Source of the DNA: a virus
Length of the DNA stretch: 43,537 nucleotides
IMG/VR virus record: IMGVR_UViG_3300030117_006642
Span: 1-43,537 of that record
Direction: 5' to 3' (one strand)
Positions 1 to 20,558 of the stretch are shown here, in pieces. Under the pieces are notes generated by a model, which saw only the letters and a program-made list of their open reading frames with translations, was not told the origin of the DNA and did no database searches. The position numbers and the translations under genes are program-made. Each line of letters begins with the position of its first letter. Position 1 is the first letter of the stretch.

Positions 1-1035
1 ATGGGTGACTCATCAAAATACTTAAATGATTTTTCTGATTACCTAAGTGACATAGATTCAGATGATTTTAACTATGAGAAGTACAATCATATAGCATCCA
101 ATAGCGAGCAAGATAGTTTTGATATCGCAGCCGCTCTACAAAAAGCTACAGAAATGAGAGTTAGGTACTTAATCAACATGTATCTTGAGCGAACAGGGAG
201 TCGCAACCTATGCCTATCGGGCGGGGTTGTGTTAAACTGTTTAATGGTCGGAAAAATGCACGAGTGGTTTGATGGGAAAGTTGACAACATTTTTGTTGAT
301 CCTATACCATACGACGCCGGGTTAGCACTTGGCTCTGCACGCTTTCTGTGGCATAAAGTTTTAGGACATCCTAGGATTAAATGGGAGGACAACTCAACAC
401 CTTATTTGGGCGAGAAGCACTCTCTTGATATGATAAATGAGGTATTGGACAATAATGCCGATAAAATAGAGTTTAGAACAGCGTCCGATTCTGAAGTTGT
501 AGATCTACTAATAGATAAAAAGATCGTTTCAGTTTTTGGCGGCAGATCTGAATCAGGCAGAAGAGCCCTTGGAAATCGCAGCATTCTTGCAGACCCCCGA
601 CATTCAGATACAAAAGATATAGTTAATGAGCGCGTAAAGCATCGCCAATGGTATAGACCGTTTGCTCCCTCAATTTTAAGGGAAGAGGTGAGCAATTGGT
701 TTGAAAGGGATATTAGTAGCCCATACATGTCGTTTGCGATCCCCTTTAGAGAGGATAAGAGAGAGTTAGTGCCGGCAGTTGTTCATTTTGACGGGACTGC
801 TAGATTACAAACTGTAACTGAAAACGACAACCCTTGGTACTACAAATTGATCAGCCTATTTAATGACAAAACGGGCGTTCCGATACTTCTTAACACTAGC
901 TTCAACGATCGTGAGCCCATTGTTGAATACCCTGAACACGCTTTGAATTGCTTTTTGGGAACCGAGATTGATTATCTATATTTTTATGAGAAAAATATTC
1001 TAGTTTGGAGAAAAGATGCTAAAGAAGACGGTTAA
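1..1035 (+). CDS. Carbamoyltransferase, NodU/CmcH family (partial, 5' end outside window)
   Basis: C-terminal part of an O-carbamoyltransferase that would transfer a carbamoyl group from carbamoyl phosphate to a sugar hydroxyl. Family motifs are visible: LCLSGGVVLNC (about residues 70-80), the C-terminal domain signature GRRALGNRSILADPR (about 186-200), RPFAPSIL (about 219-226), HFDGTARLQTV (about 264-274) and GVPILLNTSFN (about 294-304). Family members usually have about 570-600 residues; only 344 are present and the N-terminal domain with its metal-binding histidines is missing. The reading frame is open at base 1, so the ATG there is probably an internal Met and the gene continues upstream. 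The 3' end overlaps the next gene by 20 bases. In this setting it could decorate the fucosylated glycan, which is inference. The family call is firm; the sugar acceptor is unknown. Confidence 0.88.
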   Translation: MGDSSKYLNDFSDYLSDIDSDDFNYEKYNHIASNSEQDSFDIAAALQKATEMRVRYLINMYLERTGSRNLCLSGGVVLNCLMVGKMHEWFDGKVDNIFVDPIPYDAGLALGSARFLWHKVLGHPRIKWEDNSTPYLGEKHSLDMINEVLDNNADKIEFRTASDSEVVDLLIDKKIVSVFGGRSESGRRALGNRSILADPRHSDTKDIVNERVKHRQWYRPFAPSILREEVSNWFERDISSPYMSFAIPFREDKRELVPAVVHFDGTARLQTVTENDNPWYYKLISLFNDKTGVPILLNTSFNDREPIVEYPEHALNCFLGTEIDYLYFYEKNILVWRKDAKEDG

Positions 1036-2050
1036 CATAGTTGGCTCCCCAGGCTGGTATGATCAAGAAGAATATGAAGGCGGTATGCGTGGACTACCTC
1101 TTGTTGACTATGAGGTAACTTACGATAAAAAGTCTAACAATCGTTTGACAATCTTTGTTAACAAGAAGGGCATGGAGAAAGCCTCAGAAGTTGAGTCAGA
1201 TACAAAGGTTGCCCTAATATCCGATTGTAGATGGGTTATTCCAGAATACTATGAATATTTTGAAAAAAATCATGAAAAATTTGACCACATAATCACTTAT
1301 GACGATGTGATGATAAAAAACTTCCCCAATAAGGTCTGGATAACGCCAGCTGGCGGAAGCTTTATTTGGCCAAAACATAAGCAGAAGATTCATCCAAAAA
1401 CAAAAGCATGTTCTTATATCGCCTCAACAAAAGACTGGAACCCACTGCAGGTTTTTAGGAAAGGGCTGTTAGGCTATATTGGTAATACGTATGGCAAGTT
1501 TATTGACTTATATGGCACTGGACATAGACCCTTGAAGGACGTTGTGGGTAAAATAGATGGACTTGCTGATTATGCCTTTTCAATCGCTATAGAAAATGTT
1601 GAGTCAGACTATTATTTTTCTGAAAAATTAATAGATTGTTTCTTGGCTGGAACAATACCGGTTTACTTTGGCAATCGCAATTTGTCTAAATATTTTAACA
1701 TGGATGGGATAATTTGCTTAAGACCTGCGATTCATCTTGTTCCCTCTGACTTTAAACTACGTGGGATGAATGAACATGCAGCAGAAACTTGGAAGCGAGA
1801 GGTTTTTCCGACAATAGACCCGGCGAACTTAATTATACGCAACAAAGAAGACCATGGCGTTCAAAGAAGCGTTAGAGCGTTTCCCCCTGTTGATTATGCG
1901 TTAGATTCTAAAGCGTTTTTAAATGAGATAGTTTTAAAACTAAACAATGAAGAATATGCCAGGCGCTTTGAAGCCGTAAAGGAAAATTTTGAATTAGCTA
2001 AAAAGTATATTGATAGCATTAGCTATGCCATAAAGACACATTATGAGTAA
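1016..2050 (+). CDS. Glycosyltransferase family 10 (alpha-1,3/1,4-type fucosyltransferase)
   Basis: Predicted to transfer L-fucose from GDP-L-fucose to a glycan acceptor. The diagnostic GT10 donor-binding block lies at about residues 186-221: YAFSIAIENV, then SEKLIDCFLAGTIPVYFG. In the family the reading is a 'FS(I)A(F)EN...EK..D...AGT(I/V)PVY.G' pattern. The 344-residue length is usual for bacterial GT10 enzymes. No signal peptide or membrane helix is seen, so it should act in the cytoplasm. The start overlaps the carbamoyltransferase by 20 bases and is supported by GGAG at 1007-1010. The donor is made by two genes downstream (2907 and 4697). Linkage (alpha-1,3 is commonest in this family) and acceptor cannot be read from the sequence. 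Confidence 0.88.
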   Translation: MLKKTVNIVGSPGWYDQEEYEGGMRGLPLVDYEVTYDKKSNNRLTIFVNKKGMEKASEVESDTKVALISDCRWVIPEYYEYFEKNHEKFDHIITYDDVMIKNFPNKVWITPAGGSFIWPKHKQKIHPKTKACSYIASTKDWNPLQVFRKGLLGYIGNTYGKFIDLYGTGHRPLKDVVGKIDGLADYAFSIAIENVESDYYFSEKLIDCFLAGTIPVYFGNRNLSKYFNMDGIICLRPAIHLVPSDFKLRGMNEHAAETWKREVFPTIDPANLIIRNKEDHGVQRSVRAFPPVDYALDSKAFLNEIVLKLNNEEYARRFEAVKENFELAKKYIDSISYAIKTHYE

Positions 2051-2085
2051 GATCGGGTACTTTATTTTGCTTTGACCCTTGTTTG

Positions 2086-2115
2086 TTGAAAAATTTAGAT
2101 TTTTTAAGGTATAAT
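2086..2115 (+). promoter_or_regulatory. Sigma70-like promoter in the fucose cassette
   Basis: TTGAAA at 2086-2091 and a perfect TATAAT at 2110-2115 are separated by 18 bases in the 140-base gap between the GT10 gene and the DegT-like gene. This is the longest non-coding gap in the window. It would be read by host RNA polymerase and start a transcript at about 2122, with a leader of about 70 bases before the AAGGA ribosome site (2179-2183) and the ATG at 2191. That would separate the aminotransferase-GMD-GT11-synthase-epimerase genes from the two upstream genes. I see nothing else in 2051-2190: no hairpin terminator and no RNA gene. Confidence 0.6.
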
Positions 2116-2190
2116 AAGGATGTATTTTATGCTCCGCATTTTGGTGAAGTTTAAAGAATATCCAAAAACATAGATTTTAAAGGACAAGAG

Positions 2191-2907
2191 ATGACAGATA
2201 AGAAAGTAAATTATACATCTTGGCCACTTGGTAGGATCCCGTTAGAGTGGCACCGACCTGAGTTAGATCAGCTTCGCGAAGCCGGGTACGAATGGAGTGA
2301 TCCAAGAGATGCTGTTGATATTTTTGAGAAAAAGGTCGCGACGTTTTCTGGCGCTAAATATGGAATTGCCGTGGATTGTTGCTCCAATGGGTTGTTTTTA
2401 TGCCTAAAGTACCTGAAGGCTACAGGTAATATAACCATACCCTCTCAGACTTATGTTTCTGTGCCAATGCAGATAATTCATGCTGGGTGTGGTGTAATCT
2501 TTGAAGACCTACAGTGGTCTGGGATCTATCAACTTAAGCCCTATCCAATTTACGACGGAGCCACCAGATTTACGAAAAATATGTTTGTTGGTGATGACGC
2601 ACTTCAGGTAGTTTCTTTTCAAATTAAAAAGAGGTTGCCAATCGGTCGTGGCGGGATGATACTGACAAATAGCGAGGAAGCATATAACTGGCTAAAGAAA
2701 GCCTCATATGACGGTCGCGACCTGGAAAAGTATTACCCCGAGGATGATTTTGAAATACTAGGGTGGCATATGTATATGACCCCCGAAGATGCCGCTCGCG
2801 GCATTTTATTGATGGACCAGCTACCGGATGTAAATGAAGATTCTGGCGGCTCAGAAAATTATTCAATTTTGTCAGATAAAGAAATTTTTAAGAATAGGAG
2901 ACACTGA
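2191..2907 (+). CDS. Short DegT/DnrJ/EryC1-like sugar aminotransferase
   Basis: Resembles PLP-dependent sugar aminotransferases, which convert keto-sugar nucleotides to amino sugars. Visible parts are the cofactor-phosphate region KYGIAVDCCSNGLFL (about residues 54-68), an aspartate in YDGATRF (D122) at the place of the family's PLP-ring-binding Asp, and VVSFQIKKRLPIGRGG (140-155), in which K147 lines up with the Schiff-base lysine of the SFHxxK...GEGG motif. At 238 residues it is far shorter than the usual 370-400: the stretch between the cofactor strands is reduced and the C-terminal small domain is nearly absent. It starts after AAGGA at 2179-2183 and its TGA overlaps the ATG of GMD. A GDP-4-keto-6-deoxymannose (perosamine-type) substrate would fit the neighbour, but loss of aminotransferase activity is also possible. 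Confidence 0.7.
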   Translation: MTDKKVNYTSWPLGRIPLEWHRPELDQLREAGYEWSDPRDAVDIFEKKVATFSGAKYGIAVDCCSNGLFLCLKYLKATGNITIPSQTYVSVPMQIIHAGCGVIFEDLQWSGIYQLKPYPIYDGATRFTKNMFVGDDALQVVSFQIKKRLPIGRGGMILTNSEEAYNWLKKASYDGRDLEKYYPEDDFEILGWHMYMTPEDAARGILLMDQLPDVNEDSGGSENYSILSDKEIFKNRRH

Positions 2908-3875
2908 TGACAAAGAAGGCGTTAATTACAGGAATTGCAGGACAGGATGGGAGTTACTTAACTGAGTACCTATTGGGTCTTGGATATGAGGTTTACGGCG
3001 TTGTTCGTAGAAGTTCTGTCTCTGAGAACCAAGATAGCCGCTTACGACACCTAAGACATAGGATTAAGACTTATTACGGAGACTTGCTTGATGTCCCGTC
3101 TTTAACACGAATCATGATGGAGGTCATGCCTGACGAGATTTATAATCTTGGGGCAATGAGTCACGTTAGGGTTAGTTTTGATGTTCCATCATTTACAATT
3201 AAAACTAATGCACTAGGTGTTTTGAACCTTCTGGAGGTTTATCGCACAGTTTGTCCAAATGCTAAGTTTTATCAAGCCAGTTCTTCAGAGATGTTTGGAA
3301 ATTCAGTGGACGAAGACGGTGTTCAGCGACTTACCACACCAATGACTCCAGTTAGCCCATATGGCTGCGCCAAGGTCATGGGTTATAATTTGGTTCGCCA
3401 CTATAGGCATGCGTATGGACTGCACGCCTGTAACGGAGTTCTGTTTAATCATGAGTCTCCTCGGCGAGGATCAAATTTTGTAACAAATAAAGTGGTTAAG
3501 ACTGCTGTTGAGATTAAGAAGGGCATGCGAGATAAGCTAGAGCTTGGAAACATGGATTCATATCGCGACTGGGGGCACTCAAAAGATTATGTTAGGGCTA
3601 TGCACCAGATTATCAATCATGATGAACCAACCGAGTTTATTGTAGCCACCGGCAGAACTCACTCTGTGCGTGATCTCTGCGCGCATGTTTTTGGTTATCT
3701 CAACATGAATTATGAAGACTATGTTGTACAAAATCCCATCTACATGAGACCGGAGGAGCTTCGTTATCTTAAGGGAGACCCGTCAAAGGCACAACAAATT
3801 CTTAACTGGAAGCCAGAGTACACCTTTGAGAGCATGATGAACGAGATGGTAGATTATTGGATGGAAATATTGTAG
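2907..3875 (+). CDS. gmd: GDP-mannose 4,6-dehydratase
   Basis: Converts GDP-D-mannose to GDP-4-keto-6-deoxy-D-mannose, the first committed step to GDP-L-fucose. It is an extended short-chain dehydrogenase/reductase in the cytoplasm using NADP(H). The nucleotide-binding loop TGIAGQDG is at residues 8-15. The catalytic set is ASSSEMFG (124-131, with S126 and E128 in the Thr/Ser-Glu positions) plus Y152-x3-K156 in SPYGCAKV. The family-specific RDWGHSKDYVRAMH lies near residue 213. Length (322) is a little shorter than the common 345-370, with two extra residues between the Glu and the Tyr. The ATG overlaps the preceding stop (TGATG), which implies translational coupling. GDP-mannose itself must come from the host, since no ManB or ManC is in the window. 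Confidence 0.95.
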   Translation: MTKKALITGIAGQDGSYLTEYLLGLGYEVYGVVRRSSVSENQDSRLRHLRHRIKTYYGDLLDVPSLTRIMMEVMPDEIYNLGAMSHVRVSFDVPSFTIKTNALGVLNLLEVYRTVCPNAKFYQASSSEMFGNSVDEDGVQRLTTPMTPVSPYGCAKVMGYNLVRHYRHAYGLHACNGVLFNHESPRRGSNFVTNKVVKTAVEIKKGMRDKLELGNMDSYRDWGHSKDYVRAMHQIINHDEPTEFIVATGRTHSVRDLCAHVFGYLNMNYEDYVVQNPIYMRPEELRYLKGDPSKAQQILNWKPEYTFESMMNEMVDYWMEIL

Positions 3876-3879
3876 AAAC

Positions 3880-4695
3880 ATGATTACTTGTGATGTAATT
3901 GGCGCCGCCCCTGCAAACCCAGGTCTGGGAAATCAGCTTTTCACGATAGCTGCTACCGTTTCCTTGGCTCTAGACAATGATGCTGTTGCTGTCTTTCCAG
4001 ACTTGCTACATCCTCCTTATAGGTTTTATGGCGAGACAATTTTTCACAAGCTAAATCACGGGACTGACAAAGGATTTGTTAAATACTTATACCAAGAAGA
4101 GCCATATACTAGCACAATATTTAATAAGATCCCATATATTGATGGTTTATGCCTAAGAGGATATTTCCAGTCTTACAAATACTTTTATCACAATTTGAAA
4201 AAAATAAGAGAATTATTTGTTATGCCACAGGAAATTTTAGAGACAATAAATGAAAAATATAATAATGTTTTTTGCTTTGATGATTCAGTTTCTTTGCATG
4301 TTCGCCGTGGCGATTATGTAAAAATGTCTGACAAATACACTTCTTTGGGTGACACATATTACAATAAAGCATTATCCAAAATTGAAGATTATTCCAAAGT
4401 GATAGTATTTAGTGACGATATAGATTGGTGTCGTAAGGAGTTTCTTGTAAACCACCAAGACCGAAAACACTTTGAGTTTATTGACGGCGAGTTAGACGTA
4501 ACCGATCTTTACTTGATGTCTAAGATTAAAAATAACATCATAGCGAATTCCACGTTTTCTTGGTGGGGCGCGATGCTCAACAGCAATGAAGATAAACAAG
4601 TAATTGCTCCTTGGGAGTGGTTTGGACCAAGCAGAGTTAAAGATAACCGATCTGAGACGACAGACCTAATACCAGCAGAATGGAAAAGAATATAA
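3880..4695 (+). CDS. Glycosyltransferase family 11 (alpha-1,2-type fucosyltransferase)
   Basis: Second fucosyltransferase of the cassette, of a fold family different from the GT10 enzyme. GT11 signatures are in order: GLGNQLF near the N-terminus (residues 15-21), HVRRGDYV (H140 onward, the donor-binding HxRRGDY motif), VIVFSDDIDWC (about 184-194) and DLYLMSK followed by IIANSTFSWWGAML (220-233). Length 271 is typical. It lies between GMD and the GDP-fucose synthase with gaps of 4 and 1 bases, so it is co-expressed with the enzymes that make its donor. The ribosome site is weak (GGA near 3861), suggesting coupling. Family call firm; the acceptor sugar is unknown, though alpha-1,2 linkage to galactose is common in this family. 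Confidence 0.9.
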   Translation: MITCDVIGAAPANPGLGNQLFTIAATVSLALDNDAVAVFPDLLHPPYRFYGETIFHKLNHGTDKGFVKYLYQEEPYTSTIFNKIPYIDGLCLRGYFQSYKYFYHNLKKIRELFVMPQEILETINEKYNNVFCFDDSVSLHVRRGDYVKMSDKYTSLGDTYYNKALSKIEDYSKVIVFSDDIDWCRKEFLVNHQDRKHFEFIDGELDVTDLYLMSKIKNNIIANSTFSWWGAMLNSNEDKQVIAPWEWFGPSRVKDNRSETTDLIPAEWKRI

Positions 4696-4696
4696 A

Positions 4697-5614
4697 ATGA
4701 CAAAGATATTGGTCACTGGCGGCACCGGGATGGTTGGCACTGCCTTGCAGGAGGTTCTAAAAGACGCTATTTTTCTCTCTTCCAAAGATGCCAATCTAGT
4801 TCGCCAAGAGGAGGCGGAAAGAGTTTTTCAAGAGATAAGACCAGAAAAGGTTATTCACTTAGCTGCTCGCGTCGGCGGAGTAAAAGCCAATATGGATAAT
4901 TTAGGACTATTCTTTTATGAAAATTTAATGATAAACACAAATGTGTTAGAATGTTGTAGGAAGACCGGCGTTGAGAAGGTTCTGTCTCTGTTAAGCACAT
5001 GTGTCTATCCTGACATAGCTGAGTACCCCCTAAGAGAGAAGGTTATGCACTCTGGTCCTCCACATCCTACAAACTATGGCTACGCATATGCAAAGCGAAT
5101 GCTAGAGGTTCAAACAAGAACATATAGGGAGCAATACGGATGTAATTATACAACAGCTATACCTAACAATCTGTTTGGTGAGAATGACTACTTTGATCTA
5201 GAAAACTCTCACGTTATACCAGCAATGATTAGGAAGATCTATGAGGCACGGGAGAGTGATCAAAACGTTCAGCTGTGGGGCGATGGAAACGTATACAGAG
5301 AGTTTACTTACTCAAAAGATATGGCTAAAATATTAGAATTTTTACTAAAAGAATATGATAGCCCAGATCCAATAAACATTGGTAACACCAAAGAATATAA
5401 GATAAAAGATGTAGCAAATACCATTGCTGACATTTTACATTTTCAGAATGAAATAGTCTGGGATACGACAAAACCAAAGGGACAGATAAAGAAGCCATCC
5501 GATGGATCTAAACTGAGAGACATTGGGTGGAACAACTACACAGAATTTTCTGACGCACTAACGAGTACATGTGAGTGGTTTGAGTCAAACTACAATGAAA
5601 TAAGAGGAAAATAA
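4697..5614 (+). CDS. fcl: GDP-L-fucose synthase (epimerase/reductase)
   Basis: Converts GDP-4-keto-6-deoxymannose to GDP-L-fucose by 3,5-epimerisation and NADPH reduction. Motifs: TGGTGMVG (residues 7-14), HLAARVGGVKAN (about 55-66), the serine-containing LLSTCVYPD (about 98-106), Y129-x3-K133 in GYAYAKRM, and H172 in SHVIPAM, at the position of the family's general acid/base His. Length 305 is normal. From memory, blocks such as GYAYAKRM, GPPHPTNYGY and WDTTKPKGQ(I)KK look closer to the animal GFUS/TSTA3 type than to the E. coli WcaG type; this needs a tree. The stop overlaps the next ATG by one base. Confidence 0.93.
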   Translation: MTKILVTGGTGMVGTALQEVLKDAIFLSSKDANLVRQEEAERVFQEIRPEKVIHLAARVGGVKANMDNLGLFFYENLMINTNVLECCRKTGVEKVLSLLSTCVYPDIAEYPLREKVMHSGPPHPTNYGYAYAKRMLEVQTRTYREQYGCNYTTAIPNNLFGENDYFDLENSHVIPAMIRKIYEARESDQNVQLWGDGNVYREFTYSKDMAKILEFLLKEYDSPDPINIGNTKEYKIKDVANTIADILHFQNEIVWDTTKPKGQIKKPSDGSKLRDIGWNNYTEFSDALTSTCEWFESNYNEIRGK

Positions 5615-6474
5615 TGAAAAGAGTATTAGTCACAGGGGGTCTAGGATTTATTGGATCAAACTTAGTTGACATTTTAAAGGAAAATTATACTTGTGAGGTA
5701 ATCGTACTAGACAACCTGATATCAGACTCAAGTAGTCAAGAGTACATGAGGAATGATGTTGAGTATTGGATAGATGATATAAGAAATCTAAATAATGGCA
5801 AATATGACAGAGAGGTGGATACAATATTTCACCTAGCTGCACTAGCTAGAATTCAACCAAGTTTTGAAAAACCACTAGAGACAATTAATGTAGACTCCTA
5901 TGGCACAGCTGAGGTGTGTGAATATGCACGAAGAAACGGATCAAAGGTTGTTTATGCTGGCTCTAGTTCTTTTTATGGAGGACCCTATCTAAATCCTTAT
6001 GCATTTGCGAAATGGCAAGGCGAGGAGATGTGCCAGCTTTATTCAAAATGCTTTGGTGTGAATACAGCGATCGCCAGATTCTTTAATGTATACGGAGTAA
6101 GGCAGCCAGAGAGTGGACCATACGCTACAGTTGTTGGTATTTTTGAAAAACTATATAGAGAGGGGAAGCCCTTAACTATCACTGGCGATGGGGAGCAGAG
6201 AAGAGACTTTACCCACGTTAATGATATCTGTAATGGCTTGATACAAATTTCTAAGGGTGATTGGAGTGGGGAAATTTTTAATCTTGGAACGTCCACAAAC
6301 CACTCAATTAACGAATTGGCAGCGCTATTCGCAGGTAGTCAAACAGCATACATACCAGCAAGACCTGGCGAAGCAAGGAACACGTTAGCTGATATATCTG
6401 AGACTACAAAAAAGACAGACTGGAAGCCAAATTATAAATTAGAGGATTATATCCTCTCTACAACAAATAAATGA
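5614..6474 (+). CDS. Compact NAD-dependent sugar epimerase/dehydratase (GalE-like extended SDR)
   Basis: Extended short-chain dehydrogenase/reductase acting on a nucleotide sugar. Seen: TGGLGFIG (residues 7-14) for NAD binding, FHLAALARIQPS (about 71-82), the serine motif AGSSSFYGG, and Y129-x3-K133 in NPYAFAKWQ, followed by RFFNVYGVRQ and GDGEQRRDFTHVNDI, which are typical of UDP-sugar 4-epimerases. It has 286 residues against about 310-340 in the family; most of the loss is between the SSS motif and the catalytic Tyr, where about 15 residues are missing. The exact substrate cannot be set: UDP-glucose/UDP-galactose or UDP-GlcNAc type are all possible. It ends the tightly packed glycan cassette. 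Confidence 0.85.
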   Translation: MKRVLVTGGLGFIGSNLVDILKENYTCEVIVLDNLISDSSSQEYMRNDVEYWIDDIRNLNNGKYDREVDTIFHLAALARIQPSFEKPLETINVDSYGTAEVCEYARRNGSKVVYAGSSSFYGGPYLNPYAFAKWQGEEMCQLYSKCFGVNTAIARFFNVYGVRQPESGPYATVVGIFEKLYREGKPLTITGDGEQRRDFTHVNDICNGLIQISKGDWSGEIFNLGTSTNHSINELAALFAGSQTAYIPARPGEARNTLADISETTKKTDWKPNYKLEDYILSTTNK

Positions 6475-6487
6475 AAGGAAATTTAGT

Positions 6488-6643
6488 ATGACAAACGAGC
6501 AAGTTAGAAATCTACAGACTAGAATTGCAGACCTAGCAGATAAGGTGGCAGTCTTAGAGGGTCAATTTAGAGTAACCCAAAATAGACTAAAGCAAGACAT
6601 GAGCCGTCTAATCCAAATGGTTGAGAATAACAAGAATAGCTAG
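6488..6643 (+). CDS. 51-residue coiled-coil protein
   Basis: Small open frame of 51 codons with ATG at 6488 and TAG at 6641-6643. It has a good ribosome site, AAAGGAA at 6474-6480, seven bases upstream. The translation begins MTNEQVRNLQTRIADLADKV and continues as a charged helix with leucine/isoleucine/valine heptads (L9, I13, L16, V20, L23), ending in NNKNS, so a short parallel coiled coil is likely. It fills the gap between the glycan cassette and the late-sigma cluster. No function recognised. The ribosome site, heptads and fit between neighbours support it as a real gene. Confidence 0.65.
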   Translation: MTNEQVRNLQTRIADLADKVAVLEGQFRVTQNRLKQDMSRLIQMVENNKNS

Positions 6644-6661
6644 AAAGAGAGGAAAAGTAAA

Positions 6662-6883
6662 ATGGAATTAAAAAGTTTTAATTTGTCCGACCAGGCTTTG
6701 GGAGCAGTAATGATGGCTCTCCAGAAGTCTTTGATGGAGCAATCGGACATTGTTCCAGTTTTAAAAGATTTTGATTTTATTCCAACAGAGGACGGTCTTA
6801 TCGTAAAGAACCCGCCCCTGGTTAAGATGGAAGCAGAAGGAATGGCACTTTACGAACAGACTGACGATACTGAGAACGAATAA
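6662..6883 (+). CDS. 73-residue phage protein of unknown function
   Basis: I do not recognise a defined domain. The protein starts MELKSFNLSDQALGAVMM, has an amphipathic helix with ALQKSLMEQSDIVPVLKDF, a short beta-like GLIVKNPPLVKM stretch, and an acidic tail ending TDDTENE. There are no cysteines and no membrane helix. The start is supported by AGAGAGGAAAAG at 6645-6656. The stop TAA directly abuts the TTG start of the zinc-ribbon gene, so the two are probably co-translated. From memory, similar small proteins are found beside the late sigma gene in marine T4-like phages, but I cannot verify this here. Confidence 0.75.
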   Translation: MELKSFNLSDQALGAVMMALQKSLMEQSDIVPVLKDFDFIPTEDGLIVKNPPLVKMEAEGMALYEQTDDTENE

Positions 6884-7144
6884 TTGCCAACATATACTTA
6901 CAGATGCGAAAAGTGTGATTTAACATTTGAGGAGTTTCACTCTATGAGCGAGACGGTGGATTACTGTAAATCTTGTGATCCACCCTCTCCTGTCAAGAAA
7001 GTGTTATCAAAAAACTTTAATATCAAGCGTGGCAAAAAAACAGACAATAAAAAGCCGGGTAAGATTGTAAATGAGTATATACAAGAAGCCCAAAGAGAAC
7101 TAAAAGAGGAGAAAGATCGCCTCTCCAAGGAAGAGTACGTGTAA
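6884..7144 (+). CDS. FmdB-type zinc-ribbon protein (TTG start)
   Basis: An 86-residue protein starting with MPTYTYRCEKC, the hallmark N-terminus of FmdB-family zinc ribbons. The zinc ligands are C8-x2-C11 and C28-x2-C31. The rest is a basic segment (NIKRGKKTDNKKPGK) and a charged helix (EAQRELKEEKDRL). The start codon is TTG at 6884, immediately after the previous stop; it is chosen because the family conserves the MP(T)YxYRC start and there is no in-frame ATG before the first cysteine pair. A ribosome site is poor (GAG near 6872), which fits reinitiation. Role unknown: a DNA- or polymerase-binding regulator is plausible given the late sigma gene two genes downstream, but that is inference. 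Confidence 0.82.
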   Translation: MPTYTYRCEKCDLTFEEFHSMSETVDYCKSCDPPSPVKKVLSKNFNIKRGKKTDNKKPGKIVNEYIQEAQRELKEEKDRLSKEEYV

Positions 7145-7145
7145 A

Positions 7146-7448
7146 GTGACAACATTTATATCTATTTTTTTGTTAGTATCTGTTTTTATAAACGCTGTTT
7201 TGATATGGTATTGTCGCAAGTTGACAAGTCAATTTGTTTTTTTTAGTCAAAATATAGAAAATCTTGAAACAGCGCTCCAATCCTTTGATAAACATTTGCA
7301 GTCAATTTATGAACTTGAGATGTTTTATGGAGATGACACCTTGGAGGGGTTACTAGAGCATTCAAAACAATTGCTCGCCTCAGTAGTGGATTTTAATGAT
7401 AGTTTCTCTATAGAGGAAGAAGAGGAGGAAGAGGATGGCAACCCGTAA
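7146..7448 (+). CDS. Small membrane protein with acidic tail
   Basis: A 100-residue protein with one N-terminal hydrophobic helix (about residues 3-22, FISIFLLVSVFINAVLIW) followed by a helical, probably coiled-coil, cytoplasmic or periplasmic part and the motif MFYGDDTLEGLLEHSKQL. The C-terminus is a run of seven Glu and Asp. GTG start at 7146 with AAGGAAGAG at 7127-7135. The last 14 bases overlap the sigma factor gene, and the codons of the Glu run form that gene's ribosome site. Function not recognised; from memory a similar protein sits beside gp55 in T4-like marine phages. Confidence 0.78.
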   Translation: MTTFISIFLLVSVFINAVLIWYCRKLTSQFVFFSQNIENLETALQSFDKHLQSIYELEMFYGDDTLEGLLEHSKQLLASVVDFNDSFSIEEEEEEEDGNP

Positions 7449-8130
7449 GCGAAGAGCAAAAAAGAAAAATCATTATTTTACGGCAGATCACGAGAAAGCC
7501 ATCGTGCGATATGCAAATACCCGAGATATAAGGGAAAGAACAGAGCTTTATATACAGTATATTGAACCAGCTTTCAGCGAAATGGTGGATAAAGTTGTTT
7601 ATACTTATAAGTTCACCACATTGCCAAATATTGATTCGCTTAGGGATGAGTGTAAAGTGTATCTAACCACGATATTGGACAAGTACGATCCCAATCGTGG
7701 TTCAAAAGCCTTTTCATATTTCTCGGTGATTACAAAAAATTGGTTCATTCACAAGGTAAAGAAGACAACTGCTCGTTCCCGCAGGGAAACTGACTTTGAA
7801 GATATTACTGGAGAGGTGGAGCAGAAATATTTATCCTCGTATAACCCATATCATCACAAGCGAGAAGAAGCAGAATTTTGGAACTTCTTATGGTGCGAAA
7901 TAGCCACTTGGGACACTGGCAATTTAAAGGAGAATGAAAAGAAGGTCTATGAGGCTGTAAAGATACTGCTATCTAGCCCCGAGGATATTGAAATTTTCAA
8001 TAAAAAGGCTATTTATCTATATATTCGGGAAATCACGGGGCTCAACACAAAACAAGTTGTCAATAACTTAAACAAGATGCGAGTCAAATATCGTGTTTTC
8101 AAGGGTAAGTGGAACCGTGGAGACATTTAA
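7435..8130 (+). CDS. 55: Late-transcription sigma factor, gp55-like
   Basis: Predicted phage sigma factor that directs host RNA polymerase to late promoters. In T4, gp55 recognises TATAAATA-type elements and works with gp33 and the sliding clamp. The 231-residue protein has a basic N-terminus (ATRKRRAKKKNHY), an early helix region with YIEPAFSEMVDKVVYTYKF, and the sigma region-2-like core DKYDPNRGSKAFSYFSV followed by ITKNWFIHKVKK (about residues 82-110), with the aromatic and basic residues expected for promoter melting and DNA binding. T4 gp55 is 185 residues, so this form carries a longer C-terminal part. Start ATG 7435 follows AGGAGG at 7423-7428. No gp33 is recognised nearby. Confidence 0.82.
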   Translation: MATRKRRAKKKNHYFTADHEKAIVRYANTRDIRERTELYIQYIEPAFSEMVDKVVYTYKFTTLPNIDSLRDECKVYLTTILDKYDPNRGSKAFSYFSVITKNWFIHKVKKTTARSRRETDFEDITGEVEQKYLSSYNPYHHKREEAEFWNFLWCEIATWDTGNLKENEKKVYEAVKILLSSPEDIEIFNKKAIYLYIREITGLNTKQVVNNLNKMRVKYRVFKGKWNRGDI

Positions 8131-8420
8131 TGAAAGACTTGACGGCTTACTTAGAAGAAGCCATTGATAATATCCGACAAGATCGGGACGTGACCAAAGA
8201 GCTTCTTGCTGATGTCATGCAATATATGTCGCAAGATCAGCACAGCCATAAAGAAGTCGGTCAAACAGCTGCTAAGTATGTAGAAACCCTACAGAGGTCT
8301 AATGAGCAGCTTGTAAAAGTAAGTGCAATTATTCACAAGCGAGAGAGTTCTGCTAGTGATCAAGGTTTGACTGCCAAGGATAAAGACGACCTTTTTAACA
8401 TGATCAAGGAAAACGAGTAG
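8130..8420 (+). CDS. 96-residue helical phage protein
   Basis: Unrecognised, mostly helical, charged protein beginning MKDLTAYLEEAIDNI and ending DLFNMIKENE, with no cysteines and no membrane segment. I chose the ATG at 8130, which overlaps the sigma-factor stop (TAATG) and has GGAGA seven to ten bases upstream; a GTG seven codons earlier (8109) would give 103 residues but lies in the sigma gene without a better ribosome site. Its stop is one base before the ATG of the baseplate hub gene. It could be a late-transcription accessory or a baseplate chaperone; nothing in the sequence decides. Confidence 0.72.
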   Translation: MKDLTAYLEEAIDNIRQDRDVTKELLADVMQYMSQDQHSHKEVGQTAAKYVETLQRSNEQLVKVSAIIHKRESSASDQGLTAKDKDDLFNMIKENE

Positions 8421-8421
8421 G

Positions 8422-9753
8422 ATGCCCTCTGATTTTGATCTAGAGCTGAATCCATATTTTGATGATCGCTTCCAACAGAGAGTGGAGCGCTCAGTATATG
8501 ATAACCCAACAATAACTCTAGCTTATCTCAAAGAAGGGTCGCTTAAGAGTTATCGTCGTAACTTCCTGTCTCATACGAACACCTTTAAGGGGATTGTTCT
8601 AAAGGTGGAAGAAGGCTTTACAGGTGCCGCCACTGCCAGAGAGAGGACACCTGCCGAAGGAGACACTCCGAGGGAACTAGAGGTTAAAAACACTTTTCGT
8701 GTCCGGGTCAGAATCCCGGAAGTGCACGCACATATACCATTACCCTGTAGTGGAGACACAATTGATTATGCCGCGCTCCAGAGAGGTGTTGTTGAGATGC
8801 ATCCGCTTTTTGTCGCCAGGGGTATTCCAGGCGAGCCGCCAAGCGCAGGAGATATCGTAGAGGTAAGCTTTTATAGAGGACCCGAAGGCGGAAACCAGGT
8901 AGACGGAATATTCCACAGGGTTTATCAGAAGGGTCTAGGAGCCTCTGACGCTTCAGCCTGCGTTTGTGCGGACGTCCCCGGTTTCTCCGTCAGTAGGTAC
9001 AAATCTGGCGTTGCATACGGCGCTCCTCGTTCCAACTTAGCATCTCCGCGACGATCGTCCGACCCAGAGCTTGAGCGGCTGCTAATGCAGTGGAGAGATG
9101 AGGCTATACGTGTAGCACGCGCCAACAACATACCGGTCAATGGGTTTCTGGCGCTAATAACTCAAGAGAGCGCTTGGGATCCAGTAGCCGTAAGTCCGGT
9201 GGGGGCTGTGGGTCTTGTGCAGCTTATGCCGGCTACTGCCCGCCAGCTTGGACTAACTGTTGATTCATCAATAGATGAGAGGGAAGATCCATATAAATCA
9301 CTCGCAGCAGGTGCAAGATACATATCCCAGACTATACCTGGTGAGCTGGACTCGCCCGCCAGAAGAAAGTTGTCGGGTAGTGGAATTACCAGAACTAACC
9401 CAAATGGTGGTCGGGAATATTGGGACCGCGTTTTGTCTGCCTATAATGCTGGCTCCGGGACTGTGAATCGTGCAATAAACAATTCAGGAAACGGCGTGTT
9501 TGATTGGAGAGATAACCTCCCAAAAGACGAAACCAGGCACTACATTCACAACTTAACTCCTTATTTTGTTGGGGAGATGGGGTCAGTTGATACCCCAGAA
9601 ATCCCAATAAGTGATATGGGCACGACGACATACGGAACTGAACCATTGTCAACTCCTTTGCCAGCAAATACTACAGATCCCGAGCTTGAGGAATTTGTAA
9701 ACAACCTCGGGTTGAGCCCAGCTGGGCGATCTGAATTAATAATAGGTGATTAG
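8422..9753 (+). CDS. gp5-like baseplate hub with lytic transglycosylase domain
   Basis: Tail-tip protein likely to cut peptidoglycan during infection. The N-terminal half (about residues 50-175) has beta-rich OB-fold-like sequence (FRVRVRIPEVHAHIP, GDIVEVSFYRGP) as in gp5/VgrG-type hubs. The C-terminal half (about 218-375) is a GH23 soluble lytic transglycosylase: catalytic E249 in ITQESAWDP, then GAVGLVQLMPATA, DPYKSLAAGARYI, and AYNAGSG near residue 340. In T4 gp5 the corresponding lysozyme is a GH24 muramidase, so the catalytic domain has been replaced. An acidic/proline-rich tail of about 60 residues follows. The ATG is one base after the previous stop. No signal peptide is seen, as expected for a virion enzyme. 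Confidence 0.88.
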   Translation: MPSDFDLELNPYFDDRFQQRVERSVYDNPTITLAYLKEGSLKSYRRNFLSHTNTFKGIVLKVEEGFTGAATARERTPAEGDTPRELEVKNTFRVRVRIPEVHAHIPLPCSGDTIDYAALQRGVVEMHPLFVARGIPGEPPSAGDIVEVSFYRGPEGGNQVDGIFHRVYQKGLGASDASACVCADVPGFSVSRYKSGVAYGAPRSNLASPRRSSDPELERLLMQWRDEAIRVARANNIPVNGFLALITQESAWDPVAVSPVGAVGLVQLMPATARQLGLTVDSSIDEREDPYKSLAAGARYISQTIPGELDSPARRKLSGSGITRTNPNGGREYWDRVLSAYNAGSGTVNRAINNSGNGVFDWRDNLPKDETRHYIHNLTPYFVGEMGSVDTPEIPISDMGTTTYGTEPLSTPLPANTTDPELEEFVNNLGLSPAGRSELIIGD

Positions 9754-9781
9754 ACATTTTAAATGACTTGAGAATATATTT

Positions 9782-10735
9782 ATGACAAAAAGAAAAGCGA
9801 TCAACGTTAAACAATTTACTGGTGCTCAAAAGAGAAAAATACGCAGGATAACAAATGGGCAGCCCGCAGATTTTCCCGTGGTTGGTAGAAACAATGGACC
9901 GCTCGCGGAGCCGGTGCCAACATATGATTCCACCGAACCAGAAGTGGTTATAAAGAATCAAAATAATTCGTTTATAGTTTTGGGTCGCGACCGACCTGCA
10001 GACGTAACTTCCGGATATGGTGGAAAAGGAAACACCCAGTGCGGAGCAATTGATATAGTCGTTGGTAGAATGGCAGGCACCAAAAAGGGTCCTCAAGCGG
10101 ATAACGTTGTTTCGCCAAATTTCTTTACAGACGCTGCTAGGATTAATATTAGTCAAAAAACTGATATTGACACAAACTTTGGATTAGTCGGTGACATGCA
10201 ATCTATTGAAAGATCGGCGATCGGAATAAAAGCGGATGCTGTTCGCGTCATCGGTCGCGAGGGGGTTAAAATTGTAACGGGAAAGGCAAAGAATATTGAG
10301 GGAGCCGGTCCAGATGGTGAGAGAAATTCTCAATATGGTACAATTGAGAGTATAGCAGGAATAGAACTAATAGCCGGGAATGATGTAGAGGGTGATGAAT
10401 TACAGCCAATTGTAAAAGCATACGCTCTAGCAGATTGTCTATCATCTCTTGTTGACAGAATAGGCGAGCTTGCTGACACGGTCAACGAAATGGCCAAAAC
10501 TCAAACCCAGATGAATTTGGCACTCGCCACCCACACTCACCAGGCTGGTCCTGTCCCCACAACCCCCCCGGTGGATGCGTCAATTAAAATTGCAATTAAA
10601 GAATGTCAAAGAATAAACAATGTTCACTTAAACCTATACAAGCAAAAGATTAAGACTGAGGCTGGGTTTTCTATGACTTATTTGTCTCCTGTCGCTAAGA
10701 AATGGTTTGGAAGCCGTTGGAATAAAACCAATTAA
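9782..10735 (+). CDS. Putative baseplate spike or hub-associated virion protein (HxH motif)
   Basis: A 317-residue, glycine- and beta-rich protein. Blocks such as SFIVLGRDRP, GAIDIVVGR, SAIGIKADAVRVIGREG and IAGIELIAGN are short alternating strands typical of intertwined beta-helical spikes. Near the C-terminus a helix (LVDRIGELADTVNEMAKT) is followed by ATHTHQAGP with H251-T-H253, an HxH motif that binds iron at the tips of phage spike proteins such as those of P2 and Mu. The C-terminal SPVAKKW...SRWNKTN is basic. The position directly after the hub gene supports a spike role. From memory, a similar protein is conserved in T4-like cyanophages. Start ATG 9782 has only a weak ribosome site (GAG at 9770-9772). 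Spike role is inference; virion protein is likely. Confidence 0.68.
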   Translation: MTKRKAINVKQFTGAQKRKIRRITNGQPADFPVVGRNNGPLAEPVPTYDSTEPEVVIKNQNNSFIVLGRDRPADVTSGYGGKGNTQCGAIDIVVGRMAGTKKGPQADNVVSPNFFTDAARINISQKTDIDTNFGLVGDMQSIERSAIGIKADAVRVIGREGVKIVTGKAKNIEGAGPDGERNSQYGTIESIAGIELIAGNDVEGDELQPIVKAYALADCLSSLVDRIGELADTVNEMAKTQTQMNLALATHTHQAGPVPTTPPVDASIKIAIKECQRINNVHLNLYKQKIKTEAGFSMTYLSPVAKKWFGSRWNKTN

Positions 10736-10746
10736 GGATAAACAAG

Positions 10747-13700
10747 ATGCCCTTAGACGAAAGTGCTATTTATGAACTTCGCTCTGCGACAAGAGTGGTT
10801 GGAACTCCATCCTCCGGTCGCCGCCGGCGTTGGTGGAATGAAGTTTTAGCTCCCATTTATGCTAGTGGGCTTGTAAATCAAAATCTTGATCAATTAAGCA
10901 ATGTGGTAGAGAGACATTCTGGTGCCTCTGGTGCTGGTGACGTTTCATTATTTGAGGATGTTTGGTTTAATCCTGAAACAAGGGAGCCTGTACCAAATGA
11001 CATTTTGGATGCTTTTGCATTTGTTGTTGTTAATTTAATATTGGATAATGTACACAGCGGCAACGACGGCGTACGCTACTCTGCCGGTGGTTATGGCGTC
11101 CTGGCTGACGCGATGGGTCCTCCCGGTCGCGACCGGAATTCTTACTCTGAAGTGGACGAATGGCTAGCTAGTGGAGAATTAACTGACGAGCAAGTACAGG
11201 ACATAAGAAGAGGCTTATCACCAAATGATGCATTCGGCACAATTGATCGTGCTAGTGAAGTAGTAGGGGCACTTTTGCGCTCTGACTCTGACCGGACTGC
11301 GGCTGAGGAAGTTGGTGTCGCCGGATTTGCTGATGAGTATATCCCGCCACAAGGCTCGTATATTACGGGTGTAGACGCCCCGGTTTGTGCGGAGACCCAA
11401 GAAGAGCCGGAAGTGAATAGGACCGGGTGTATACCTGATGTGGACGCCCCTGTACCAGACTGGTCCACACAAGAGACTCCGTTTCTTAATCAAAAAAATT
11501 GCACATACTTTATTACAGTTAAGACAAATGTGGATTGCCCTGCTGCTGAGCAATTTCCGATAATTGTTAATCAATTTATGCCAGAAGCAGTATTTAAACT
11601 TTTAAACTTTCTAGGCAAAGAGTTAAGACCCTTCCCCGATACACAGGGTGTTAATGATAGAAATGAATATAACATAATAAGAAGGTATGTCCTAGACACA
11701 AAGTCCTATGAGTTTGAAAAGGCTCCAAACACCAAGATTAAGCTTCTTTATAAAATACCCTTTGGTTTAATTAAGGCTTTAGACCTCCCCCCCAAGGACC
11801 CCACGGCTGATGGACCCACTTCTGGCACTGGCGTGACACTTGAAGGCTCCGGCTTGGTTGACAAGTTAAACGCGCTCCAGCAGCGCCTATCCGCCCTTGC
11901 GATGAGCCAGGCAGAACTTTGGAATTCACAAGGCACCAAGATTCTAAAGGAGGGTACTTCGTGGGAAATTAATCTACGAAATGAAGCAAACGACATAGAT
12001 TCATTAAGATCGTCAATTGGCAAGATTCTTAACGCAAATAACATGAGACTTGCAGCGGACCCTCTGGAGACAACAGCCTCTAGCAATCTGGAAAAGGAGG
12101 ATGAGCTTCTGGTTGTAACTGAGTTGCAAATATTTTATGATGAAAATTACAATCTAACGTCGCTTCTTGCGAGAGAGAGGGGCGCCCCGTTTATAAGGGC
12201 AAACTTGTCATCATTGCTTGATACAGATGGTTTGCGTAATGCCACAAATATTTCTTATCTAGTAAATCTAGATGCAATTTCCCTAACCAGCAATTTGGGA
12301 GTTACGGAGTTTTTAGCGAGGTATCACTATCCTAGAGTCCAAGCACAAGTGTTCCCAAAAATAGACCTACCCCCCATTCCAGATAGCACGCAGGACAGCG
12401 TTCTTTTGCAGTCCATGATGAACGAATTGGTTGATGCGGCTGACTCTTTTGCAAAAAGGTTTGCAAATTATTCATGCATGACGGGCGACCAACTCAAGGA
12501 AAGGAACAAGCAACTTGGGGGCGCCTTCGCTGAGATGGAGGAGCTATTGTCCTTTGAAAACATAAGGTCTATTGCAGCGGATGACCCATTGATAAGCAAT
12601 CTAGCCACAACGATTGAAAATATAGTCTCATCTATGCCACCCCCAAACCCAACAAAGGAAGACAAGACAGTTGCAATAGTTTGGGAAAAAATCTTTAATA
12701 AGATGAGTGCCTGTGGGCTATTGAAGTTAATAATAAAGAGTGTTGAGTTCATAGTAAAAAATGATGTTTGTGGAATAAGCCCCGAAAAAGCGCTGATTGC
12801 TGCCATCGGAGGAGTTCTGAAGAATGAACTTCCAGAAGTGCTGGAGGGAGTATTTGAAGCGCTGCCCCCTGAGTTGAGGAATTCTGTTCGTGCGCGATAT
12901 ACATCACGAGTTAATGCATTTTTATCTGAAATGGGGTCAAATGAAGGCGCCACTTTCCCATGGGAATATGCGCGAGAACTGGGAACAGTAGCCGCCCGCG
13001 AAGAGAGTGGCAACAACTTGTATTCAGCGACAGGCACACCATATGTGCCGCAACAATCGTCAGAACTTTGGGACGACGACTCAACTCGTGCAGCTTTTGA
13101 TGCCGGTAGAGAGGGTATGCCCTATGACCGCACATCTAGTGCAGAAGAGGAGGCATATTGGGCAGGACAATCCCAAGCGCTTACAGAGGGTGCTGCCGGC
13201 GCTCCCGGTGTCCGTGAGGCATTTGAGGCAGGGCGAACAGGGGCAAACTTTCAGCCACAAAATGAGGAGCAAGCTAACGCTTATTGGGATGGGCAGATCC
13301 AGGGGCTTAATGATATAGAGCAGACAGCTTCTGAGTCAGAGATTCAGCAGCGTCCCGCTAGCGTAGTCGGCACTCAAAGCGATATTGCAAATTTTGCAAA
13401 TGGAATATTAGCAGATACTTTTAAATTGCTGATGGACGCTTTTGTTGAAGCTATGAAGGAAGAGTTGGGCTTGGAAGAACTCCTTGAGGCAACAAAAGAC
13501 ATACCAGCGATCGGCGTGTTGATTAGGTCGGTGCCACAAATAGGAAAGTGCGTAATAAACAACAATGTGTCAGTCACTGATAAGAAGGGCAACCCAATTT
13601 CATTAAGTGCACTACAAAACACTTTAGAGGCTGCTGCCGGGCAGTTAGATATTTGTAAGCTTACTGGTGGTAATAAACCACTAACGCTTCCAAACATAGA

Positions 13701-18325: not shown

Positions 18326-18712
18326 ATGTCAGGCTTAGCTGTAAAACTTCCAATCACGAGAGACAACAGGGATGGCTTTAAATTATTAAAGACTTACGAA
18401 GATTTGGCGGTACAAAACCTAAAGATGTTAATATTGACATCCCCAGGCGAGAGGATGATGGATCCAGAGTTTGGCGCGGGAGCAAAAAATCTTTTGTTTG
18501 AGCAGATGACACTGACTACGTTTGACGATTTTGAGAGCAACTTATTGGACCAAGTAAATAGGTATATGCCATATTTGGTAATTCAAGACGTCTCGTTTGA
18601 TTCTGCCTTAACAAATCCCAACCTAGACGAAAACTATTTATCAATCACGGTAGCATTCTTTAATAAGGCTTTAAACACAAGGAATTTACTACGATTGCCA
18701 ATAAATATTTAA
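18326..18712 (+). CDS. 25: Baseplate wedge protein gp25-like
   Basis: A 128-residue protein of the gp25/GPW (lysozyme-related) baseplate family, which forms the inner baseplate and starts sheath assembly; T4 gp25 is 132 residues. The hallmark is SPGERMMDPEFGAG at residues 39-52, preceded by AVQNLKMLILT and followed by LLFEQMT. The C-terminal strand YLSITVAFFN and a short end with LRLPINI complete the fold. Strong ribosome site AGGAGA at 18315-18320. A 43-base gap upstream contains CTATTTAC at 18298-18305, a candidate late promoter. The gene lies directly before gp6, its structural partner in the wedge. Confidence 0.93.
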   Translation: MSGLAVKLPITRDNRDGFKLLKTYEDLAVQNLKMLILTSPGERMMDPEFGAGAKNLLFEQMTLTTFDDFESNLLDQVNRYMPYLVIQDVSFDSALTNPNLDENYLSITVAFFNKALNTRNLLRLPINI

Positions 18713-18752
18713 ATCGCGATGCTAACTAGTTATTAATAAACGAGGAAAATTT

Positions 18753-20558
18753 ATGTCCAACGGAAACCGAAACAGACCTCCAATCCGCTACACTAGTAGG
18801 GATTTTCAATCTATTAAGGAGGACTTGATAGATTATGCTAAGAGATATTATCCAGAAACATTTAGAGACTTTAGCGATGCGTCTTTTGGCTCCTTGATGA
18901 TAGACTCGGTTTCCTACATTGGTGACATTTTATCTTTTTATATTGATTACCAAGTAAACGAAATGTTTTTGGATACGGCGGTTGAATATCTTAATATTAT
19001 TCGCCAAGGTCGGCAAGTTGGGTATCAATTCGGAGGTGCCGCGACTGCAACCGGAGAATGTAGCTTCTATCTGCAAGTTCCCGCAAACACAATTGGATCA
19101 GGACCCGATACAGACTACATGCCAATATTAAAAAAAGGCACTAGCGTAGCTTCAACCGAGGGCGCCACTTTTCTATTAGATGAAGACATAGATTTCAGCG
19201 ATCCTAAGTATCCAAGAAGAGTGGGACCGACATCCGCCACAGGGGCGACACAATATTTTATAATAAATGCGACCGCAAAAGTCATATCTGGTCAATTGGG
19301 GACTGAGTTTGTGTCTGTTGGCGCCTTTGAAAGATTTAAAAAGGTACAGTTGTCCAACTTGGATATAGTAGAGATCTTATCTGTCTTTGACTCAGAAGGG
19401 CACCAGTATTACGAGGTGGATTATCTCTCTCAAAACGTTGTCTATCGCAGTGTGCTAAATAGGGACGCCTCAAGCGATCTAAATGACCCCGCTTCCATTA
19501 TAAAACCTTTTGTTGTTCCGCGCAGATTTGTGACAGAAAGGGCTAGCAGGATAACATCGTTGCAATTTGGTTATGGATCAGAGAGCGAAAGGAACGCTTC
19601 TTCTGTCGCCGATCCATCTAACGTAGCACTACAGAGGTACGCTCGCGACTACTCATCTGATACTTCTTTTGACCCCTCTAAGCTTCTAGATACGGATAAA
19701 TTTGGGGTTGCTCCGTCTAACACAACGCTGACCATATCTTTTAGAAAAAATTCAATTGGTAGGACAAACGCCCCCTCCAACACGGTTAATCAGATTGTAA
19801 ATTCGTCAATGGAGTTTAAAAACCCCTCTATTCTAAATTCAACAACTCGCGCTGCCGTTGAGAGTTCGCTAGAAGTCAGCAACGTGGATCCAATTGTTGG
19901 GAATGTTGCAAATCCGAGTGCCGATGAATTAAGGGCTAATATTGCAGGGAGTTTTGCTGCTCAAAACCGAGCAGTAACAGAGCAGGACTATAAGGCACTC
20001 GTGTATTCAATACCCCCACAATTTGGCGGTGTTAAGCGCTGTGCAATCTATAGGGACTCTGATTCCTTTAAGAGAAATCTTAATCTATATGTAATATCTG
20101 AAGACAATAGCGGAAATTTGGTCACAACCAATAATACAGTCAAAGAAAACTTAAAAACTTGGCTTGGACAGAGTAAAATGATTAACGACACAATTGATAT
20201 CTTAGATGCAAAGGTTGTTAACTTTGGAATTGACTTTGTAATCAGATCGGTGCTTGGTGCTCAAAAGTATGATGTTTTAAGGAGATGTGCACTTGCACTC
20301 GGTAATGCATATGATAGAAAAATGGAAATAGGCGAATCGCTATCTATTAATGATATATATCAAATACTAAACGGAATTAATGGTGTTGTGGACGTCATTC
20401 AGGTTAGAATTATAAACAAGTATGGGTCGGGATATTCCAACGTCTCCTACAGCATGGAGAACAACATGAACCAGGATGGCTCTCGTATAAATGTTCCTAA
20501 AAATGTAGTGCTTGAATTAAAATACCCTTCTAGTGATATTAGAGGAACAGTTAAATAA
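18753..20558 (+). CDS. 6: Baseplate wedge protein gp6-like (baseplate J family)
   Basis: Wedge protein that dimerises to form the inner ring of the baseplate. At 601 residues it is close to T4 gp6 (660). The N-terminus has RYTSRDFQSIKEDLIDYAK, then DFSDASFGSLMIDSVSYIGD and FYIDYQVNEMFLDTA (about 39-77), the typical start of marine gp6 proteins. Near residue 405 is AAQNRAVTEQDYKALV, the hallmark of baseplate J/gp6 C-terminal domains, followed by GGVKRCAIYRD. Ribosome site GAGG just upstream; the 40-base gap 18713-18752 holds two 10-base AT palindromes (18723-18732 and 18730-18739). The stop overlaps the next ATG by one base. Confidence 0.93.
   Translation: MSNGNRNRPPIRYTSRDFQSIKEDLIDYAKRYYPETFRDFSDASFGSLMIDSVSYIGDILSFYIDYQVNEMFLDTAVEYLNIIRQGRQVGYQFGGAATATGECSFYLQVPANTIGSGPDTDYMPILKKGTSVASTEGATFLLDEDIDFSDPKYPRRVGPTSATGATQYFIINATAKVISGQLGTEFVSVGAFERFKKVQLSNLDIVEILSVFDSEGHQYYEVDYLSQNVVYRSVLNRDASSDLNDPASIIKPFVVPRRFVTERASRITSLQFGYGSESERNASSVADPSNVALQRYARDYSSDTSFDPSKLLDTDKFGVAPSNTTLTISFRKNSIGRTNAPSNTVNQIVNSSMEFKNPSILNSTTRAAVESSLEVSNVDPIVGNVANPSADELRANIAGSFAAQNRAVTEQDYKALVYSIPPQFGGVKRCAIYRDSDSFKRNLNLYVISEDNSGNLVTTNNTVKENLKTWLGQSKMINDTIDILDAKVVNFGIDFVIRSVLGAQKYDVLRRCALALGNAYDRKMEIGESLSINDIYQILNGINGVVDVIQVRIINKYGSGYSNVSYSMENNMNQDGSRINVPKNVVLELKYPSSDIRGTVK

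Follow-up and report, generated by a model that had tools for sequence, protein, structure and literature searches.

Fucose cassettes as such are already known from phages. Cyanophage S-SCSM1 encodes GDP-mannose 4,6-dehydratase (GMD), GDP-L-fucose synthase (FCL) and three fucosyltransferases in a cell-wall gene set (PMC9602691), and GMD with FCL occur in Synechococcus phages DSL-LC02 and DSL-LC03 and Prochlorococcus phage P-SSM2 (PMC10611076), where the two genes are adjacent or nearby and, in DSL-LC03, are followed by an alpha-1,2-fucosyltransferase. Hypervariable regions of the T4-like genomes of pelagimyophages and cyanomyophages also hold surface-glycan genes (PMC7029224). Here we describe a seven-gene sugar block at positions 1-6474 of IMG/VR virus record IMGVR_UViG_3300030117_006642, which is classed as possibly a fragment and whose whole 43,537 bases are referred to below as the window. 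The new element in this block is a pair of genes, GMD and a short member of the DegT family that we call mini-DegT. The seven genes, recognized from the list of open reading frames (ORFs) together with Pfam, PHROGs and NCBIfam profiles, lie on the same strand in the following order (lengths in amino acids, aa):

1..1035, + strand: carbamoyltransferase (NodU/phage Nol-like), C-terminal 344 aa, running off the left contig end; PF16861 (Carbam_trans_C), 213 bits
1016..2050, + strand: GT10 (alpha-1,3-fucosyltransferase-type), 344 aa; PF00852, 24.4 bits, family profile and predicted fold
2191..2907, + strand: mini-DegT, 238 aa, DegT/sugar aminotransferase superfamily; PF01041, 57.8 bits, alignment and fold
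2907..3875, + strand: GMD, 322 aa; PF16363, 372 bits, and PDB match 1n7g
3880..4695, + strand: GT11 (alpha-1,2-fucosyltransferase-type), 271 aa; PF01531, 85.4 bits, and phrog_2644, 175 bits
4697..5614, + strand: FCL (epimerase/reductase), 305 aa; NF047922, PDB match 4e5y and Pfam Epimerase, 188 bits
5614..6474, + strand: extended-SDR (short-chain dehydrogenase/reductase) nucleotide-sugar epimerase/dehydratase, 286 aa; PF01370, 148 bits

Neighbouring genes of the block overlap or sit a few bases apart, with the exception of the ~140 nt between GT10 and mini-DegT; the start codon of GMD overlaps the stop codon of mini-DegT (position 2907). A preliminary description of this DNA had listed seven ORFs, all of which are present where it placed them. 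It had also considered a two-transferase fucose cassette unusual in a T4-like genome, a view that does not hold, as S-SCSM1 and the cultured, T4-like Synechococcus phage S-SRM01 carry equal or larger sets. S-SRM01 (NC_070963, cluster at ~193-205 kb) encodes GMD, FCL, GT10, two GT11 enzymes and a NodZ/FUT8-like enzyme within ~11 kb; however, its proteins are only 31-41% identical to those of the window, its cluster is larger, with SIS, nucleoside diphosphate (NDP)-sugar synthase and GT2 genes, and no mini-DegT match was found in the 30-kb stretch examined. The fucosyltransferases of S-SCSM1 are a protein O-fucosyltransferase, an alpha-1,2-fucosyltransferase and NodZ, none of them GT10, and this phage additionally encodes a GDP-mannose-3,5-epimerase (PMC9602691). 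DSL-LC02, DSL-LC03 and P-SSM2 are not among the phages matched in our GT10 or mini-DegT searches, and the pelagimyophage and cyanomyophage regions lie with tail-fibre genes, whereas the island in the window borders a late-sigma block. Flavobacterium phage vB_FspM_immuto is a relative in backbone (baseplate wedge 33% and sigma-like protein 30% identical) and encodes a mini-DegT of 214 aa as well as a related epimerase; however, no GMD, FCL or fucosyltransferase match was seen in the 49-kb stretch examined, a full-length DegT (gp177) is encoded too, and the sugar cluster lies ~24 kb from the baseplate genes.

The aminotransferase-like ORF of the window belongs to a conserved family of short DegT proteins. 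Viral members span ~195-265 aa and share 21 invariant columns, and the lysine expected to bind pyridoxal phosphate (PLP), K147, is retained along with D122 and S142 in 92 of the 92 aligned sequences; the Pfam DegT profile matches each of the 45 members scanned. The AlphaFold (AF2) model is confident (predicted local distance difference test score, pLDDT, 92.9), its best PDB fold is that of the GDP-perosamine synthase 3dr7, and none of the 50 matches listed is shorter than 358 residues. GDP-perosamine synthases (Per/RfbE; 3dr7, 3bn1) share with mini-DegT the Lys, Asp, Ser and Gly-Gly core of the superfamily, but are ~370 aa long with a C-terminal domain, in contrast to the 238 aa of the window protein, which is 18% identical and has a changed NxRM motif. 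Against 25 full-length DegT proteins, taken mostly from the same loci, mini-DegTs have ~30 residues fewer after position 109 and no C-terminal domain, and since this small domain is absent we do not file them as canonical DegT aminotransferases or GDP-perosamine synthases. A literature search, with subscription papers mostly outside its reach, returned nothing relevant on short phage DegT proteins, which is weak evidence of novelty.

The loss of ~30 large-domain residues and of the entire small domain could suggest a full-length aminotransferase in decay. This is very improbable, as the short form is common to 54 distinct viral members and to cellular ones, with all 21 invariant residues (Lys147 included), a conserved C-terminal tail and a confident predicted fold; a pseudogene was rejected on the grounds of family conservation among members down to ~32% identity. 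Two kinds of full-length protein were noticed in passing. A 387-aa DegT with mini-DegT-like motifs (SFQAVKTMPIGDGGM, with Tyr at the Arg position; L096:12149-13309) may be a full-length relative of the mini-DegTs, and in related phages 10 of the 25 full-length DegTs (L231, L232, L257, L261, L297, L300 and others) have His in place of the PLP lysine, like ColD-type GDP-keto-sugar dehydratases.

The genomic context of mini-DegT points to a partnership with GMD. Similarity to the GMD of the window recruited 80 viral loci, each at most ~21 kb, raw counts of which are inflated by shared descent; 76 of them hold mini-DegT, usually directly upstream of GMD, and an FCL-like match is seen in 10. The gap between the two genes is -20 to +25 nt in 71 of the 91 loci holding both. 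Of the four GMD loci that lack mini-DegT, two (L019, L020) instead have a Lys-type DegT of full length ahead of GMD. The same pairing is found in most of 18 viral loci recruited with mini-DegT itself, and about one third of 36 mini-DegT loci from bacterial and archaeal genomes have GMD directly downstream, other mini-DegTs lying apart from it. Once redundant sequences were removed, GMD is the neighbour of 45 viral and 10 cellular mini-DegTs. In a tree of 93 members, built with a quick method and with Shimodaira-Hasegawa-like approximate likelihood ratio test (SH-aLRT) supports only, GMD-adjoining mini-DegTs group into two supported clades; the smaller, with 13 rows (97%), includes the window, and the larger has 52 rows (100%). 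Among cellular genomes, the mini-DegT genes of L195, L197, L198 and L208, from Bacteroidota metagenome-assembled genomes (MAGs), lie away from GMD on genome contigs, and an Opitutia MAG has a full-length carbamoyltransferase directly before mini-DegT (L206:4172-6591), a pair of families also present in the window.

GDP-perosamine synthase takes the GMD product as its substrate. Since mini-DegT accompanies GMD in nearly all of the recruited loci, usually directly upstream, and FCL in few, this product probably goes into two branches, one leading to fucose and the other to a further deoxysugar, perhaps an amino sugar. More broadly, we tentatively propose, at somewhat less than even confidence, that many aquatic viruses and a few bacteria share a conserved module of two genes, this half-sized PLP enzyme and GMD, whose product would be a GDP-linked 6-deoxysugar, aminated or altered in some other way. 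In phages the module would be inserted next to late genes, into a sugar island open to exchange, and a fucose branch may or may not come with it. It is also conceivable, although we lean towards doubting it, that GMD here mainly serves the mini-DegT branch, leading to a perosamine-like or other deoxysugar, and that FCL and the fucosyltransferases were added to a pre-existing pair. The excess of mini-DegT over FCL with this GMD type (76 vs 10 of 80) and the pairing of FCL with a different GMD (46-50% identical) in other loci around the sigma gene speak for such an order of events; however, recruitment with the window's own GMD over-represents its clade, and FCL may sit elsewhere in the genome, as the loci span no more than ~21 kb.

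The enzymes of the fucose branch are well recognizable. The 11 best PDB sequence matches of the window GMD are all GMDs (5uzh among them, by code name only; best 1n7g, 6.9e-91), PF16363 is covered over 1-332 of 332, and the SSE and YxxxK active-site motifs are kept in the PDB alignment. For FCL, the 18 best matches are all GDP-fucose synthases or epimerase/reductases (best 4e5y, 6.5e-84), with STC, YxxxK and HV motifs kept. The proposed route from GDP-mannose to GDP-L-fucose is thus encoded, and the preliminary description, which had named loss of catalytic residues in either enzyme as grounds for abandoning it, is borne out here because the motifs of both align intact. Its word self-sufficient overlooks the supply, as GDP-mannose is needed from elsewhere, and mini-DegT suggests a second outlet.

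The presence of two transferases of different families is likewise upheld, GT10 by profile and fold and GT11 by Pfam and PHROGs. For GT10 the score against PF00852, the C-terminal domain of this family, is weak by itself (cut-off 23.9), but a family profile of 20 members gave five PDB matches, all fucosyltransferases (best 9.6e-15), and Foldseek ranks 1-10 for its AF2 model (pLDDT 78) are all alpha-1,3-fucosyltransferases of GT10 type. The donor-site motif EN..EK is present, with E193, N194 and K204 invariant in IEN..SEK. GT10 alone as a viral search seed gave no matches. The GT11 translation contains HVRRGDY and NSTFSWWGA motifs, and its comparison with PDB sequences returned chance-level matches only. 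Elsewhere, GT11 matches fall within ORFs of ~512 aa, about twice the usual length (L010:2851-4389 and L011:3400-4935), which are possible fused glycosyltransferases.

Two genes of the block remain. The carbamoyltransferase named in the preliminary description is present, but it is cut by the left end of the window, its 344 aa comparing with mostly 517-586 aa for relatives in related loci; PF02543 is matched over 257-345 of 346 only, and phrog_1601 (311 bits) over 226-526 of 528. The best PDB matches of the 286-aa epimerase are mixed, comprising 4-epimerases and UDP-glucuronate decarboxylases.

Downstream, the sugar block is followed by genes of the phage backbone:

6488..7448, + strand: four small ORFs (51, 73, 86 and 100 aa), bordering the sugar island on its right; the 73-, 86- and 100-aa ORFs conserved at nearly all sigma loci
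7435..8130, + strand: late-sigma-like protein (gp55-like, weak match); phrog_234, E 3.1e-4
18326..20558, + strand: gp25-like and gp6-like baseplate wedge genes; phrog_261/43 and phrog_219/10646

A transglycosylase-domain protein and then the baseplate genes come after the sigma-like gene. The block therefore lies upstream of the late sigma and baseplate genes as proposed, though not directly, given the four intervening ORFs. The label T4-like applies only loosely, the sigma match reaching 21.9 bits and the wedge being as distant from immuto as noted above; the wedge is also 30% identical to that of Microcystis phage Mel-JY01, and the sigma-like protein has 60-88% identical relatives in IMG/VR. 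Very large ORFs stand among the structural genes at 10747-18282 (2511 aa) and 22205-32038 (3277 aa), the former with no Pfam or PHROG match.

The cassette is genuine phage DNA. The sugar gene families concerned are common in bacteria, as seen in control genomes, and bacterial DNA joined to the left end through misassembly was a concern raised already in the preliminary description. Related blocks are, however, joined to the same sigma neighbourhood in five independent contigs. In L089, mini-DegT (72%), GMD (79%) and FCL (57%) are followed by the 73-, 86- and 100-aa ORFs and sigma, and L010, L011, L013 and L017 have GT11, GT10, mini-DegT and GMD before the same small ORFs and right border. GC content at third codon positions (GC3) is similar in the cassette (0.32-0.42) and the remaining phage genes (0.36-0.45). 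On this synteny among IMG/VR contigs and the matching GC3, misassembly was rejected, and its chance is practically negligible. Megablast of window positions 1-12000 against phages gave no match.

Upstream of the 73/86/100-aa ORFs and sigma lies a variable island at which sugar modules are exchanged, comparable with hypervariable regions in other marine T4-like phages (PMC7029224). Loci centred on sigma (L223-L302) were recruited with the sigma protein, independently of sugar genes, and the three small ORFs (o73, zf86 and o100) are found in 63, 62 and 63, respectively, of the 63 loci that extend 5.5 kb or more upstream; the right border is constant while the left side changes. Among 59 distinct sigma loci, 47 have an SDR-like sugar gene upstream, 15 a true GMD, 14 GMD with FCL and 8 mini-DegT, with different SDR enzymes in others beyond those with GMD and FCL. 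GMD, FCL, GT10 and GT11 occur together in none of the 59.

Considering these results together, we regard it as reasonably likely that the block is a cassette for glycan modification, located in a variable sugar island in an uncultured lineage of tailed phages, with a fucose route, a mini-DegT side branch and host-surface glycan as the target. GDP-mannose, presumably supplied by the host, would be converted by GMD to GDP-4-keto-6-deoxymannose and by FCL to GDP-L-fucose, reactions that are expected from the presence of both enzymes with active-site motifs, and GT10 and GT11 would use the GDP-L-fucose. Mini-DegT may divert part of the 4-keto intermediate, its most likely reaction being a PLP-dependent amination like that of GDP-perosamine synthesis, and the carbamoyltransferase and epimerase may add further decorations. 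The last step is the least certain: during infection the products would be attached to a glycan of the host surface, with a change of receptors, and not to the virion.

Several points weigh against this reading. GMD scores 361.6 bits over 1-340 of 342 of TIGR01472 (gmd), under the equivalog cut-off of 415, whereas the GMD of S-SRM01 is above it (540.8 bits); FCL reaches 270.9 bits against NF047922, whose equivalog cut-off is 500 and which the FCL homologue of S-SRM01 likewise misses (473.6 bits). Even so, these are the best NCBIfam models for both window proteins. Membership in GT10 or GT11 is no proof of a fucose donor. Both the window mini-DegT and its family are without the C-terminal small domain in model and alignment, which is a real objection because C-terminal residues of Spr1654 contact PLP and substrate (PMC5936713). 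The NxRM motif that full-length proteins have close to where the large domain ends (N in 20 and R in 17 of the 25) reads HxYM in the window and most mini-DegTs, which have H or N, and Y. Given the absent domain and this substitution, the reaction ascribed to mini-DegT is putative.

As to where the sugars go, we lean, purely by analogy, towards the host surface, in line with the published argument on pelagimyophage hypervariable regions (PMC7029224). Decoration of the virion itself, on capsid or tail fibres, is rather unlikely, although late sigma and structural genes follow the cassette closely on the same strand, with very large proteins encoded among them (10747-18282 and 22205-32038). Gene position by itself gives no timing, and the T4-type late promoter TATAAATA, allowing at most one mismatch, was found 80 times against 67.9 expected (standard deviation 8.4), a signal not clearly above chance that helps neither this reading nor our own proposal.

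With the fucose cassette, the known trend of phage-made nucleotide sugars reaches a lineage distant from the cyanophages. An active mini-DegT would be a sugar aminotransferase of minimal size, and would mean that in these viruses the GMD intermediate often ends up in something other than fucose. The island, with its exchangeable modules, is in turn a natural collection in which to ask what glycans of their hosts phages rewrite.

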